Below are positions 14,572 to 26,050 of a stretch of 47,698 bases of DNA, in pieces; the first letter of the stretch is position 1; every line of letters begins with the position of its first letter. The position numbers and the translations under genes are program-made. Below the pieces are notes generated by a model. That model ran no database searches, was not told the origin of the DNA, and saw only the letters and a list, made by a program, of their open reading frames with translations. The DNA is taken from NCBI GenBank assembly GCA_016124795.1, contig WGNB01000026.1, positions 1 through 47,698 of the forward strand, given 5' to 3'. The stretch is from Rhodopseudomonas sp. Its GTDB lineage: Bacteria > Pseudomonadota > Alphaproteobacteria > Rhizobiales > Xanthobacteraceae.

Positions 14572-15528
14572 ATGCATAGTGCGATGCCCCCATTGTCGGC
14601 ATTGCGGGCTTTTGAGGCGGCGGCGCGTCATCTGAGCTTGACCAAGGCGGCGGTGGAATTGCACGTAACGGCGGGGGCCTTGAGTCACCAGATCCGTGGG
14701 CTGGAGGACCTGCTCGGCGTGAAGCTGTTCGAACGGCGGGTGCGGTCGATTGCCCTTACCACCGCCGGCAAGCAGCTTTATCCCGGTTTGCAGACCGGTT
14801 TTGGCCATATTCGTGACGCTGTCGCGAGTTTGAAGGCCGTGGGCGATCCCAATGTCCTGGTGCTCAGCACATCGCCCGGCCTGACCGCGAAGTGGCTGGC
14901 GCCGCGGCTTTACCGTTTCGGCGCCGATCATCCGTATGTCGACGTCCGGATTTCCTCGTCGCTGGCCAATGCCAATTTCACGACCGATGGTATCGATCTC
15001 GCCATCCGCAACATGGCGATTAGTCCGGCTCCTGACCTGTTATTGGAAACCGAGATTCTGGCCGAGATTTCATTCGTGCCGGTTTGCAGTCCGGGCCTGC
15101 TCGAAAAATTCGGGCCGGTGAATGATGCGCGCGATCTGGCCCGATTGCCGCTGATCCACGACGAAGTGTTGGTCGGCCGGGCCAAGGTTCCGACCTGGGC
15201 GGATTGGTTCGAGGCGGCCAAGGTCGATGGTGTCGATCTGCGACGCGGCCTGCGTTTCAACAGCGCCGATCATGCGCTCGATGCCGCCGGGGAGGGCGCC
15301 GGCGTTCTGTTATCGCACGATGTGTTGGCTTATGACGATCTGCGCACCGGGCGGCTTGTTATTCCGATTGATCTGGCTCTGCCATCCGGACGCGCGTTTC
15401 ATTTGGTGTGGGCGAAAGGCCGTCAGGCGAGTCAGGCCGCTGTTGATTTCCGCAGCTGGATCAAGCGGGAAATCGACGCTTTGGACTGGACGTTGATCAA
15501 GGGACGGAAGATGGGCGCGCGGCGATGA
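14572..15528 (+). CDS. LysR-family transcriptional regulator (GcvA-like)
   Basis: A 318-residue LysR-type regulator. The N-terminal winged helix-turn-helix (about 6-65) reads LSALRAFEAAARHLSLTKAA, then ELHVTAGALSHQIRGLEDLLG and LFERRVRSIALTTAG; the substrate-binding domain follows (about 95-300). LSLTKAAVELHVTAGALSHQI is typical of the GcvA subgroup. The effector cannot be inferred. It lies 134 bases upstream of the chemoreceptor-UrtA fusion on the same strand, but no operator or shared function is visible. Normal length, probably intact. Confidence 0.9.
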   Translation: MHSAMPPLSALRAFEAAARHLSLTKAAVELHVTAGALSHQIRGLEDLLGVKLFERRVRSIALTTAGKQLYPGLQTGFGHIRDAVASLKAVGDPNVLVLSTSPGLTAKWLAPRLYRFGADHPYVDVRISSSLANANFTTDGIDLAIRNMAISPAPDLLLETEILAEISFVPVCSPGLLEKFGPVNDARDLARLPLIHDEVLVGRAKVPTWADWFEAAKVDGVDLRRGLRFNSADHALDAAGEGAGVLLSHDVLAYDDLRTGRLVIPIDLALPSGRAFHLVWAKGRQASQAAVDFRSWIKREIDALDWTLIKGRKMGARR

Positions 15529-15662: not shown

Positions 15663-17999
15663 ATGCCAACGTCAAACCGCCATCGTTTCCCGCGACCCGC
15701 GCTGTGGATTGCGGTGCCGGTGTTCTTTGTCGGCATGGCCGTCGTCGCCGTCGAGGCTATCGTGCCGTCGTTGCCGGTCGCGATAGTGATTAGCGCGTTG
15801 GGGGCCTTTGTTGTCGGATGTTTTGCCGAAAGCCGGCTGGCCGGGATTATCGCGTCGATCAGCGCGATCGCCGGTGGCGACCGCTACACCAGCCTGCCGG
15901 AGCTGGTCGGTGATGGTGCCATTCAGGATTTCACCAATACCGCCGGCAAGATCCGCACAGCGTTGCTGGAAGCCGATACCTTGGCGGTCGATCAGGGCCG
16001 GCGTGAAACCGAGGCGCGGTTGCACCATGCCGGTCAGCATTTCTTCACCGGCAGCTTCCGGCGGGCTGTCGACGATGTGGTCAGCACTTTTACCAGCGCC
16101 GGTGAGCGCATCCGCGGCACCGCTGCCGAACTGGCCCAAACCAATAAGCTGATGGCGCAGCAGGTGATGGCGTCTTCCGACGCCGCGGAGCAAGCGGCCG
16201 AGGATGTTGCCGATGTCGCTGCCGCTGCCCGCGACGTTCAGGCTTTGGCGATTGATTCCGGCCGTCAGGTCGACGAGGCGCGTGCCGCCACCACCCGCAC
16301 CGTCACCGAACTCGCTCGCGCCGACGAGACCATGCGCAATCTTGCCGAAGCCGCCGGGCGCATCGAGCAGGTCATCAAACTGATCCAGGCGATTGCCGGA
16401 CAGACGTCGCTGTTGGCTTTGAATGCTACTATTGAAGCCGCCCGCGCCGGCGAGTCCGGGCGCGGCTTCGCGGTGGTGGCCGCCGAGGTCAAGGAGTTGT
16501 CGCGCCGGACCGAGACGGCGACCCGGGAAATCAGCACTCAGGTTCACGGCATTCAGGATGCGGTCAAGGAAGCCGCCGAGGCGATCGTCGCGGTCGATCA
16601 AAGCGTCGCCGCGATGAGCCACGTCAACGAAAATGTGACCCGGTTGATGGAGCAGCAGGTTGCCAAGCTCGATCTGATCGGCACTGAAGCGCGCAAGGTT
16701 GCCGCCACCGTCAGTGAGGCGTTGCCAGGCATTCGTTCGGTCGTCTCCGATGTCGCCAATGCCGGCGACGCGGTGCTGACCACTGCCGACGACCTGATCG
16801 GCCGGGCGCAGTTGCTGACCTCGTCGGTCAATCGATATTTCGCCGATCTCGATCACGGCTCGATCAAGGTTGGCATCCTGCATTCGCTGTCGGGCACGCT
16901 GACCACAAGCGAGCGACCGTTGCAGCAGATGTTGGTCATGCTGATCGAGAAGCTCAACGAAGCCGGCGGCCTGCTCGGTCGTCCGGTCGAAGCCGCGATC
17001 ATGGACCCGCGTTCCGACACGGGCGCCTATGCCGCCAAGGCCGAAGCGTTGCTGCGCGATCATAAGGTGGCGGCGATATTCGGTTGCTGGACGTCCGCCT
17101 CGCGCAAGCAGGTGCTGCCGGTGCTGTCGAAATACGATGGCCTGCTGTTTTACCCGAGTCAGTACGAAGGCCAGGAGCAGTCGCCGCATGTTATCTATAC
17201 GGGCGCGACGCCGCGGCAGCAGGCGATCCCGGCGGTCGATTATTTGCTCGAGCAGGGCCGCCGCCGGTTTTTCCTGGTCGGCACCGATTACGTCTACCCG
17301 CGCACCACCAACGCCATTATTCGCAATTATCTTGGCGCGCGTGGCATCAGCGCCGACGCGGTTGACGAGCACTACACGCCGTTCGGTGAAAAAAGCTGGG
17401 GCGATATCGTTCATCGCATCCGTAAATTCGCCGGTCGCGACGGCGCGATCATCGCGACCTTGAGCGGCGACTCAAACGTGCATTTCTTCCGCGAGCGCGC
17501 CCGGCAGGGGCTCGACGCCAATATCCTGCCGGTGATGAGCCTGTCGATTGGCGAGGCTGAAATGCCGGCGCTGGCTGAGCGCAATCTGGTCGGTCACATG
17601 GTGGCGTGGAATTATCTGCAAAGCATCGACACGCCGGAGAACCACGCTTTCATTGCCGAGTGGCGACGTTTCACCGGCGACGAGAACGCGATTACCAACG
17701 ATCCGATGGAAGCGAGCTGGATTGGCTTTCACCTCTGGGTGCAAAGCGTCATGGCGGCCGGCACCACCGAGCCGCAGGCGGTGCGTCGCGCGTTGGCCGG
17801 CCGTTCGCTGCGCGCGCCGTCCGGTTTCGACGTTCGGCTCGATGCCGAGAACCAGCATCTCCACAAGCCGTCGGTGATCGGCCGTATGGACGCCAACAAC
17901 ATGATCTGGCCGGTCAAGATCAGCGACGGTCTGATTGCGCCGGAACCGTGGAGCAGCTGGCTGTCGAAAGACGGTCAGGCCTGGCGCAAGGCAGGCTAG
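15663..17999 (+). CDS. Chemoreceptor signalling domain fused to a C-terminal UrtA-like urea/amide-binding domain
   Basis: A 778-residue fusion. Two hydrophobic helices lie at about 13-33 ([20 protein letters not shown]) and 36-55 ([20 protein letters not shown]), with almost no loop between them. Residues about 120-385 are an MCP signalling coiled coil with the hairpin tip [20 protein letters not shown] (around 250-265) and [15 protein letters not shown]. From residue 401 a complete UrtA/AmiC-type domain begins: [13 protein letters not shown], then [56 protein letters not shown] and [12 protein letters not shown]. UrtA is normally the periplasmic urea-binding protein of an ABC transporter. 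With Arg-rich N-terminus inside, both MCP and UrtA-like parts should face the cytoplasm. No frameshift separates them. No che or urt genes are in the window. Confidence 0.9.
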
Positions 18000-22990: not shown

Positions 22991-24397
22991 TTACTGTTGC
23001 GTCCGGCGCTCGGCGAGTTTCGCTTCGGCTCGCGCGAGGTTTGCCGTGGTCCCTTTAATGTAATAATCGGCCTTGGCTTCGGTGAAGACCTCAAGCGCGG
23101 CGCGATAGGCCTCGATGGCCTGTTCGAGGCGTTCGGTGCCGCTCTCGCGTTCGCCGAGCGTTTCGAGCGCAGTACCGAGATTGTTCTGGGTCGTGGCCCA
23201 GTTGAGCGGGACGCGGTCGCGGGTCCGTTCGGTGAGCGCGGCGCGATAGGCCTCGATGGCCTGTTCGAGGCGTTCGGTGCCGCTCTCGCGTTCGCCGAGG
23301 ATTTGGAGCGCATTGCCGAGATTGTTCTGTGTCATGGCCCAGTCGAGCGGGACGCGGTCGCGGGTCAATTCGATCAGCGCGGCGCGAAAAGCGTTGACGG
23401 CCTGTTCGAGGCCTTCGGTGTTGTTTTCGCGTTCGCCAAGGACTTGGAGCGCGGTGCCGAGATTGTGCTGGGTCATGGCCCAGTCGAGCGGGACGTGGTC
23501 GCGGGTGCGTTCACTGAGTGCGGCGCGATAGGCTTCAATGGCCTGTTCGAGGCGTTCGGTACCGCTTTCGCGTTCGCCCAGGGCTTGGAGCGCATTGCCG
23601 AGATTGTTCTGTGTCATGGCCCAGTCGAGCGGGACGCGGTCGCGGGTCAATTCGATCAGTGCGGTGCGATAGGTGTCTATCGCCGTGGCGAGGGCGTCGT
23701 TATCGCCGGCCTGTTCGCCGATTGTACTGAGAATGAGTGCTTGGCTGAATAAAAGTTGCCCGCGCGTATCGGCGTCGAAGTCCGTGTGGAGTTTTGCCAC
23801 CAGGGGTGCGAGGCGTTCGGCGCTCGCCCGCATCAGCGGCACCAGATAATGTCCGCTGAGATCAACCGCCGGCGCGGCGGCCATCACGACCCTTGCGGCA
23901 AGGGCGGCGCCGATATTGCCGATGAAGGCGACGGGAAGATCGAATGTTTCGGTCAGGGTGTAGGATTGCGGCTGGGCGGGATCGGCAGCCGCTGCGGTAA
24001 TGCGCAAGGACAGGACGGTGGTCGAGACACTTTTGCCCTTGACGCGGCCCGAGATCATCAGATCGCAACTTCGTTCTGTCAGCAGCTTTTGTCTTTTTGT
24101 TTGCGCCCGCTGTTCGACGTCGTATTCGTGGCCGTCGCCCAGCGTTTCGACGTCCGGCCAACTGATGAGTTCGACCGCATCGCCCAGTTCGCGGCGCAGC
24201 GTTTCCCACAAGGTCGTGCGATAGCTGTCGCCGGTGTCTTCGGCGAGACGCGCGATCAGAATCGAGATTTTCTTGCCGGAGCCGAGGCGGATGTCGCGGC
24301 GAATTTTATATTTCAGATAGTGGTCGTAAGCCCGCGCGCCGAGCATGCGCGCGAGCGGCTCGATCACCTTTAAGCCAATCGGCCCCCACTCGATCAC
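22991..24397 (-). CDS. Tetratricopeptide-repeat protein with an N-terminal domain of unknown function
   Basis: A 468-residue protein. Residues 1-230 form a domain I do not recognise (KISILIARLAEDTGDSYR, then LISWPDVETLGDGHEYD); its ILIARL and DSYRT parts resemble N-terminal domains next to TPRs in signalling proteins, for which no function is assigned. Residues 238-437 are near-identical 47-residue TPR units of the type TRDRVPLDWAMTQNNLGNAL and LGERESGTERLEQAIEAYRA, a scaffold pattern common in Bradyrhizobium and Rhodopseudomonas. GTG is the likely start at 24397. No signal peptide. Probably a protein-interaction scaffold; partner unknown. Confidence 0.85.
   Translation of the reverse strand: MIEWGPIGLKVIEPLARMLGARAYDHYLKYKIRRDIRLGSGKKISILIARLAEDTGDSYRTTLWETLRRELGDAVELISWPDVETLGDGHEYDVEQRAQTKRQKLLTERSCDLMISGRVKGKSVSTTVLSLRITAAAADPAQPQSYTLTETFDLPVAFIGNIGAALAARVVMAAAPAVDLSGHYLVPLMRASAERLAPLVAKLHTDFDADTRGQLLFSQALILSTIGEQAGDNDALATAIDTYRTALIELTRDRVPLDWAMTQNNLGNALQALGERESGTERLEQAIEAYRAALSERTRDHVPLDWAMTQHNLGTALQVLGERENNTEGLEQAVNAFRAALIELTRDRVPLDWAMTQNNLGNALQILGERESGTERLEQAIEAYRAALTERTRDRVPLNWATTQNNLGTALETLGERESGTERLEQAIEAYRAALEVFTEAKADYYIKGTTANLARAEAKLAERRTQQ
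23087..23686 (-). repeat. Tandem ~141-bp repeats encoding TPR units
   Basis: About four to five consecutive copies of a 141-base (47-codon) unit inside the TPR gene. Phrases such as the reverse complement of GTGCCGCTCGACTGGGC recur with few changes, and the amino-acid copies are nearly identical over long stretches. Units this alike can expand or contract by slippage or recombination and are hard to assemble from short reads. Confidence 0.85.
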
Positions 24398-24517: not shown

Positions 24518-26050
24518 ATGACAGACCGCCCCACCATCTTCGCCCTGTCGTCCGGCCGGCCGCCGGTGGCGATTGCCGTCATTCGTATCTCGGGGCTGCG
24601 GGCCGGCGCGGCGCTGACCGCGCTTGGGATTAAAGTCCCTGAGCCGCGGCAGGCACGGTTTGCCCGGATTCGCGATCCGCGGTCCGGTGAGATTATCGAC
24701 GAAGGGCTGGTGCTGTGGTTCGCCGGACCGCGCAGCGAGACCGGCGAGGACGTCGCCGAGTTGCAGGTTCATGGTGGCCGGGCGGTGATCGCCGCCGTGC
24801 TCGATGCGCTCGCCAGCATTGACGGTTTGCGGATGGCCGAGCCGGGCGAGTTCACCCGGCGCGGTTTCGAGAACGGCAAGCTCGACCTGACGGCCGTCGA
24901 GGGGCTGGCCGATCTGGTCGGCGCCGAGACCGAGGGTCAGCGGCGTCAGGCGATGCGGCAGATGGCCGGCCTGCTCGGCAATCGTGCTGAAGCCTGGCGG
25001 CGCGATCTGATCAAGGCGTTGGCCCTGGTCGAAGCGCGGATTGATTTTTCCGACGAAGGCGATGTGCCGGAAGACCTGGTGACGCCGTCGCTGACGATTG
25101 TTCGTGAGCTGCGTGGCGAGATCGCCGCCGCTCTTGCCGACGGCCACCGCGGCGAGCGCTTGCGCGAGGGACTGGTGGTGGCGATCGCCGGTCCGCCGAA
25201 TGCCGGCAAGTCCACCCTGCTCAACCGGATTGCCCGGCGCGAGGTGGCGATTGTCTCGCCGCATGCCGGCACCACGCGTGACGTGATTGAAGTCCACCTC
25301 GACCTTGGCGGCTTGCCGGTGACTTTGCTCGACACCGCCGGGATTCGCGAGACCGACGATCCGGTTGAACTGGAGGGTGTTCGCCGCGCGCGGCAGAGGG
25401 CGGCGGACGCCGATCTGGTGTTATGGGTGAGCGACGCCAGCGTTCAGGAGATGGTCAGTGATGTCAATGCGCTGGAGGCGGGCCAGGGAAGCCGGCCCGA
25501 TATATGGCGGGTTCGGAACAAGATCGATCTCGTATCGGGCGTTAGCGATAGTAGTGAATCTATAATTCAAAGGATTAACCCGGGCCGGGGACGAGATGTG
25601 GTTAATATTACGTTGTCAAACGTAGTTAATCATCAGTTAACAGAAAGAAATGAATCAGGATTGCACTTTAATAATGCGTTGGAGGATGTAGCTAACAGGC
25701 CATCAACGGATGGCCTGGTGGACGATTCTGACGCAATTGGGTCGGAGTTCCTCATATCGGCGACCTCGGGTGCCGGCTTCGATGCGCTACTAGCCGCCTT
25801 GGCCAGCCATGCCGAAAGTCATCTGGCCGGCGGTGAGCAATCCCTCGTCACCCGGGCGCGGCATCGTCGGGCGCTTGAGGAAACTGTCGCGTCTCTTGAG
25901 AGCGCCCTCAGTGGTGACCTCGCCGGTCGCGAGGACTTGCTTGCCGAGGAACTGCGTGCCGCCGCCGCCGCGCTTGGGCGGTTGACCGGCCGGGTTGATA
26001 TCGAGGATGTGCTCGACGTGATCTTCCGGGATTTCTGTATCGGGAAGTGA
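24518..26050 (+). CDS. mnmE: tRNA modification GTPase MnmE (TrmE), with an unusual G-domain insertion
   Basis: MnmE, with MnmG, makes 5-carboxymethylaminomethyl-uridine at the wobble position of certain tRNAs. The 510-residue protein has the N-terminal tetrahydrofolate-binding domain ([35 protein letters not shown]), a helical domain, and the G domain: GPPNAGKS (225-232), TTRD, DTAG, NKID (334-337) and SAT (414-416), and ends in the FCIGK motif. Length is about 60 residues above the usual 440-455. The excess lies between NKID and SAT (about residues 341-409) and is AT-rich in DNA. All catalytic motifs remain and no stop interrupts the frame. mnmG follows. Confidence 0.95.
25538..25744 (+). 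other. AT-rich in-frame insertion within the MnmE G domain
   Basis: About 69 codons between the G4 (NKID) and G5 (SAT) motifs, where E. coli MnmE has about 19 residues. I count 85 G+C in 25541-25740 and 29 of 90 in 25601-25690, against roughly two-thirds G+C around it. It contains a perfect hairpin CAGGCCATC / GATGGCCTG (25696-25704 and 25709-25717, loop AACG) and TACGTT / AACGTA (25609-25614 and 25619-25624, loop GTCA). The encoded peptide is polar and Asn/Ser-rich, as for a surface loop. Consistent with a palindromic element inserted in frame, but not proven. Confidence 0.75.

Follow-up and report, generated by a model that had tools for sequence, protein, structure and literature searches.

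Helicobacter pylori TlpB is a urea-sensing chemoreceptor whose periplasmic sensor is N-terminal to its MCP part, and AmiC of Pseudomonas aeruginosa is an amide sensor that is not exported and has the same fold as UrtA, the binding protein of the UrtABCDE urea transporter. Most of the chemoreceptor ligands that have been studied are sensed outside the cell, and few of the ~15% of bacterial chemoreceptors that are cytosolic have known ligands; H. pylori TlpD is cytosolic and carries a C-terminal CZB sensor (sections of PMC6715182). For UrtA, nine residues near the urea have been listed together with mutants, among which those of Asn246 reduce or abolish urea binding and those of Phe192 mattered little (sections of PMC10392092).

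The window analysed here (47,698 nucleotides of Rhodopseudomonas sp. contig WGNB01000026.1) contains, at positions 15663–17999 of its forward (+) strand, a gene whose 778 amino acid product (P0001) joins an MCP signalling part to an UrtA-like binding part in one open frame, with an ATG start, 778 codons and zero internal stops. We read this protein as a membrane-anchored chemoreceptor that would monitor the cell interior through a urea/amide-type clamshell, and assign a probability of about 0.6 to that reading on the strength of sequence and model comparisons. All its features lie on the + strand. Two predicted membrane helices, residues 14–33 (15702–15761) and ~37–56 (15771–15830), are indicated by hydropathy and by helices 14–33 and 37–70 of the AlphaFold model, and the loop between them is ~3 residues long, which leaves no periplasmic domain. 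Residues 57–105 (15831–15977) form a linker that is HAMP-like by its position in an alignment of 21 members, in all of which G72, R74, P79 and D105 are invariant; the Pfam HAMP profile does not match the window protein, and of seven N-terminal pieces only one gives a hit, a weak one (L108, E 0.0014, 19.3 bits against a cut-off of 25). The MCP coiled coil occupies residues 136–395 (16068–16847), as judged from the Pfam MCPsignal match at residues 204–366 (E 9.6e-30, 104.1 bits against a cut-off of 34.6), the domain matches of the 21 members and the model. Its 35-residue hairpin tip, residues 242–276 (16386–16490), is strongly conserved, with many columns within residues 241–279 invariant in the same 21 members. 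The model continues from the first two helices into a long helical hairpin, and its mean pLDDT of 68.9 covers binding-domain blocks mostly at 75–94 and coiled-coil blocks of low confidence (~36–58).

The junction between the two parts is only five residues long (396–400, 16848–16862). The modelled MCP helix ends at residue 398 and the first strand of the binding domain begins at 401. Compared by eye with two UrtA precursors (L063 and L042), the junction lies where their signal peptides end, and residues 399–411 match the mature start of the L063 UrtA, 13 residues in each. These two loci had themselves been suspected of being further fusions because of UrtA matches in long frames, and both proved to be ordinary UrtA genes with a signal-peptide-like start. 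The clamshell domain, residues 401–767 (16863–17963), matches Peripla_BP_5 over almost the whole profile (positions 1–361 of 363, E 4.7e-135). Its nearest solved structures, by sequence and by Foldseek, are the UrtA-type entries 8tg1, 7s6e, 7s6f and 8hic and the AmiC entries 1pea and 1qnl (for the latter two E 1.3e-50 by sequence and 1e-25 to 2e-26 by Foldseek). Near its start lies a family signature, S-E-R-P-L at residues 416–420 (16908–16922), seen in the member alignments and in a signature scan; UrtA rows carry Thr at place 418. The initial annotation, which had described an uninterrupted 778-codon frame in the order membrane helices, MCP, complete binding domain from residue 401, is borne out by Pfam, which finds both MCPsignal and Peripla_BP_5, by the model, and by homologues that are joined in the same way.

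The MCP–UrtA-like architecture is a conserved protein family. Among 120 relatives scanned, a near full-length match is present in 21 of 43 genomes of the same genus, the window's own included; the copy in G008 carries two stops, and the remaining joined copies, in 20 of the 43, carry none. The fusion is in two pieces in G002, and G017 and G019 have binding-part fragments only, so that carriers in the widest sense number 24 of 43. Elsewhere in the same family the fusion occurs in two of 29 genomes (G059, G065), and 48 genomes of other families in the same order gave no match better than E 5.8e-123, which is the range of plain UrtA. In scans in which two or three candidates per genome (three in the phylum scan) were scored at E 1e-100, the fusion was found in four of 385 genomes of the class (the window's own, G159, G282 and G162) and in two of 299 of the phylum (the window's own and G162). 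A scan of 84,980 species around residue 417, which required the exact pattern E[RK]PL[QK]x[LMV]L[VR]M and would therefore miss divergent fusions, gave 58 pattern hits; 30 were confirmed by tblastn, and all 30 belong to this family. Pseudolabrys, Pseudorhodoplanes, Methyloligella, Methyloceanibacter and Methylosinus are among the named carriers, as is Elstera, whose copy (L122) is split; this exact-pattern scan, two of whose bins are named to phylum only, showed no fusion outside the Alphaproteobacteria. All 21 aligned members match MCPsignal (at E 0.001), Peripla_BP_5 and Peripla_BP_6.

We give almost no credence to the idea that an assembly or sequencing error has joined two adjacent genes. 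Split or stop-bearing copies (G002, G008, L116, L117, L122) might be quoted in its favour, but both parts are joined without stops in 25 of the 30 signature-scan loci, a collection that partly overlaps the relative genomes, as well as in the 20 same-genus genomes, and the homologues share the same frame and the same junction and have low dN/dS; a frameshift between the two parts, the flaw for which the initial annotation had allowed, is thus not what the relatives show. The other five signature-scan loci comprise three that are split over two frames (L116, L117, L122) and two that are cut by contig ends (L118, L123). We note that L027, L030, L116, L117 and L122 are all split or stop-bearing copies, and that in L030, L116 and L117 the frame changes in or near the conserved MCP tip, as draft-assembly error or as real decay.

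A quickly built tree, in which some branches are long, groups the 43 rows of fusion binding domains into a single clade (SH-aLRT 100), separate from 63 rows without a fusion, which are the best matches returned rather than a random sample. Among 64 comparison binding-protein frames the MCP tip motif occurs only in the window's own copy (L003), which was then removed. The single fusion clade, together with comparison rows that have no MCP tip motif, points to one origin for the sensor part of the fusions. Neither the tree nor the pocket counts below include the broken copies L027 and L030, or L120, whose domain was not recognised by the text motif for excising it; duplicates were removed as well, and the cut L123, also absent from the tree, is gapped at the pocket positions. 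On contig C68 of the own genome the UrtA gene is spread over two frames, and its short coverage led to its exclusion from the comparison. Against seven relatives, dN/dS by a simple Nei–Gojobori calculation (with dS close to 1 or higher in some cases) is 0.14–0.23 overall, with 0.09–0.22 for the MCP part, 0.11–0.23 for the binding part and 0.18–0.35 for residues 1–135. The MCP coiled coil, its tip and the clamshell are thus shown to be maintained by selection in several alphaproteobacterial groups.

Of ten frames neighbouring the fusion gene, nine match Pfam families (hemE, UPF0093, rho, LysR, DUF255, carboxylesterase, TPR, mnmE and mnmG) and one has no match; none of the ten contains an amide, urea or transport domain (urtBCDE, amidase or AmiR type). 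Across the 30 named loci no conserved amide or urea gene neighbour of the fusion was seen. The gene for rho lies upstream in 13 of these loci and that for DUF255 downstream in 12, among others in Pseudolabrys, Pseudorhodoplanes, Methyloligella and Methyloceanibacter; in other lineages none of the window's neighbours lies within the examined flank, some flanks being short. These shared neighbours indicate vertical descent in part of the family and make no statement on function, and an attempt to derive function from gene neighbours was dropped because no conserved neighbour related to amides or urea emerged. The LysR-type regulator directly upstream of the fusion (14572–15528, +) is beside it in only four of the 30 named loci (L095–L098) and so is no general partner. 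Farther downstream, the MnmE-like frame (24518–26050, +, 510 amino acids) seems to hold additional residues between the NKID and the SA motif, matches a Pfam helical domain over residues 124–507, and is ~63% to 83% identical to mnmE of named relatives in the genus; the TPR_10 protein at 22991–24397 (−) has repeats that look nearly identical to one another in translation. Elsewhere in the own genome are the two closest UrtA-like transport genes, of which the copy on C68 (L002, L129) is in two frame pieces and that on C44 is whole.

The tip of an MCP must be cytoplasmic to contact CheA and CheW. Stretches above a Kyte–Doolittle value (KD) of 1.6 occur in the window protein only within residues 10–66, the maximum past residue 60 being 1.25, and among 26 members longer than 700 amino acids, 23 have N-terminal hydrophobic stretches and none exceeds 1.6 beyond residue 75. 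Two members from metagenome bins, L119 and L120, lack any membrane helix and are apparently soluble; a hydrophobic stretch is missing from L117 too, but its N-terminal frame is broken. The window protein has no signal peptide at the junction between its MCP and binding parts, whereas in 63 of the 64 comparison binding-protein frames a hydrophobic stretch immediately precedes the domain. Because the MCP part must reach CheA and CheW, no later hydrophobic stretch exists and some members are free of membrane helices, the clamshell is very probably cytoplasmic, as the initial annotation had proposed for both parts behind its two N-terminal membrane helices; hydropathy places nothing C-terminal outside the membrane. 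Export of the C-terminal domain to sample the periplasm, which could be argued because its closest relatives of known structure, AmiC aside, are by name ABC-transporter or periplasmic urea-binding proteins, is highly improbable in the face of this hydropathy profile, the lack of a signal peptide at the junction and the two members without membrane helices. Attached to the end of the C-terminal helix, the cytoplasmic clamshell would, we infer, lie close to the part of the coiled coil that is nearest the membrane.

The standard methylation motif of MCPs follows the pattern [ASTG]2-x2-[EQ]2-x2-[ASTG]2. No strict match to it is present in the window protein or in 23 of 26 relatives longer than 700 amino acids (among these, the first part of L117 is not in frame), and two high-scoring MCPs of the own genome, the controls of this comparison, have three motifs each (the third control frame, L126, is a cut-short duplicate of one of them). 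This suggests weak or no methylation-based adaptation in the receptor itself. It is also one of the points in favour of an MCP part that works outside the chemotaxis pathway, serving as a scaffold or within some other Che-like pathway; others are that the fusion ranks only 21st of 30 MCPsignal places in its own genome, at 108.8 bits, and that no CheA dimerisation domain was found in the own assembly, which is 95% complete. We consider such a role unlikely. Nine of the 30 places score lower still, so that a weak score carries little information when taken alone, and CheW is encoded at two places in the own genome and in 23 of the 24 genus carriers (G007 is the exception). Since CheW is present in 40 of all 43 same-genus genomes, and in 17 of the 19 non-carriers, it is uninformative as a link to the fusion. 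A CheW/MCP cluster (L127, G000:C57:165000-171135) runs into a contig end, which makes an assembly gap plausible and a fair guess for the missing CheA. The conservation of the hairpin tip is best explained by contact with CheA and CheW, and we retain a chemoreceptor as the preferred reading.

The ligand of this receptor was approached through the nine UrtA residues, with 43 fusions that have residues at the pocket places (window included) set against 61 UrtA rows of at least 43% identity, from which the window was removed and in which one own-genome gene is counted twice; two binding-protein rows below 43% (one gene fetched twice) lie outside these counts. W120, S122, Y141, Q144, E146 and S274 (UrtA numbering) are unchanged in all 43 fusions, and the Phe192 place is Tyr in all 43, as it is in the UrtA rows used. 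At the Asn246 place, which is Asn in 61 of 61 UrtA rows, 37 fusions, among them that of the window, have Ser, 4 have Asn and 2 have Gly; in the window protein this is Ser601, with its codon at 17463–17465, where UrtA has a urea contact (alignment, and the contact list in sections of PMC10392092). The Tyr190 place, also invariant in the 61 rows, is Tyr in 34 fusions (window included), Thr in 5, Ser in 2, Phe in 1 and Asp in 1, and at residue 143, 40 of the 43 fusions carry Ser and 60 of the 61 UrtA rows Val. The window protein is identical to UrtA at seven of the nine residues, the exceptions being Phe192 to Tyr and Asn246 to Ser. Thus one half of the urea cage is kept strictly and the other has drifted, from which a ligand of the small-amide type is likely and plain urea is uncertain. 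Of the urea or short-amide pocket that had been proposed for this protein, the pocket type therefore stands and urea itself becomes uncertain. The strict label UrtA does not survive: the NCBIfam UrtA model TIGR03407 gives 443.4 bits, under its cut-off of 492.75, the Asn246 contact is Ser, and by these tested features the fusion binding domain is not UrtA proper.

Those same drifted places would accord with a domain that senses some other small metabolite within the cell, such as a ureido compound or an amide of larger size, with architecture and signalling unchanged. Asn246 has become Ser or Gly in 39 of the 43 fusions, Tyr190 is replaced in nine, residue 143 is mostly Ser, the UrtA cut-off is missed, and Val stands at the Asn246 place in AmiC, whose structures contain acetamide and butyramide according to their entry titles. 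We regard this alternative as somewhat unlikely, since it must be set against six of nine urea-proximal residues that never change, the four fusions that keep Asn246, and an association with urease within the genus. Urease alpha scores above its cut-off in 24 of 24 genus carriers and in 11 of 19 non-carriers (Fisher p 0.0005, post hoc and ignoring kinship), and in 16 of 16 carriers and 7 of 12 others among the 28 better assemblies (p 0.008, likewise post hoc and ignoring kinship); the association counts the binding-fragment genomes G017 and G019 as carriers, and related genomes are not independent. Matches to the formamidase FmdA (E below 1e-100) occur in 5 of 24 carriers and in 1 of the 19 other genus genomes and are uninformative.

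For the preferred reading, an intracellular receptor with a urea/amide clamshell, the following course of events can be proposed. The clamshell would bind, and be closed by, a small amide such as urea, formamide, acetamide or one closely related to them, which the cell would either import through UrtABCDE or make itself. As the first strand of the binding domain comes two residues after the MCP C-terminal helix, closure would move that helix and so shift CheA activity, and the outcome would be a metabolic-type taxis toward the internal urea or amide pool, by which soil and methanol-using carriers may steer by an internal small amide and not by their surroundings. A more specific account, in which an alphaproteobacterial ancestor turned a binding protein inside out by swapping its signal peptide for the MCP tail helix, and the resulting receptor gauges the cytoplasmic pool of amide or urea that has been taken up and not hydrolysed, with closure acting on the membrane-proximal C-terminal helix and no receptor methylation, is tentative and has in our judgement slightly less than an even chance. 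If it is true, it would provide a clamshell that acts on the C-terminal MCP helix and a route from transport protein to intracellular sensor. Since structures with bound urea or amide have been solved for the sensor family and its pocket has been mapped by mutation, ligand, binding change and kinase control are open to direct experiment.

The fusion protein resembles TlpB as a chemoreceptor tied to urea, and differs from it in that the TlpB sensor is periplasmic and N-terminal. It shares with UrtA (8hic, 7s6e, 8tg1) the whole domain, at 38–45% identity by fold alignment, and the pocket residues W120, S122, Y141, Q144, E146, Y190 and S274, and differs in having no signal peptide, in its place behind an MCP part, in the Asn246 to Ser change, in the SERPL signature and in its lack of transport neighbours. 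AmiC (1pea, 1qnl, 1qo0) has the same fold at 31–32% identity and shares E-R at residues 417–418; it is a free protein that holds AmiR, whereas the sensor of the fusion is covalently joined to an MCP and has no AmiR-type or amidase neighbour, and besides its Val at the Asn246 place AmiC has Pro where the window protein keeps Gln144. As in TlpD (sections of PMC6715182), the sensor is C-terminal to the MCP coiled coil and inside the cell, with no membrane helix between them in the fusion; the CZB domain of TlpD is an HOCl-reactive zinc domain, and the sensor of the fusion is a transporter-type clamshell of ~370 residues, in a protein that has a membrane anchor in most members. TlpD and the ~15% of receptors that are cytosolic according to that source contradict the premise of the initial annotation that known chemoreceptors have a periplasmic ligand domain which precedes the MCP part. 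A census of 82,277 chemoreceptors (PMC8547431, 2021) has one Peripla_BP_5 sequence in its Table 3, which covers only clusters with a plant-association score of at least 50%, so that the census may hold more; the text around that table does not discuss this sequence. That entry combines MCPsignal and Peripla_BP_5 in one protein, its organism, domain order and topology not being given there, and may well belong to this fusion family. Among the matches listed in the open-licence literature, PMC8547431 is, of three texts that contain the term Peripla_BP_5, the sole one with a chemoreceptor topic by title, and none is a paper on an MCP–UrtA or MCP–Peripla_BP_5 protein. The "new design" proposed initially is accordingly narrowed, as C-terminal cytoplasmic sensors are known from TlpD and the domain combination has been catalogued at least once: the order alone is not new, and what sets this chemoreceptor apart is a transporter-type clamshell as its probable cytoplasmic sensor.
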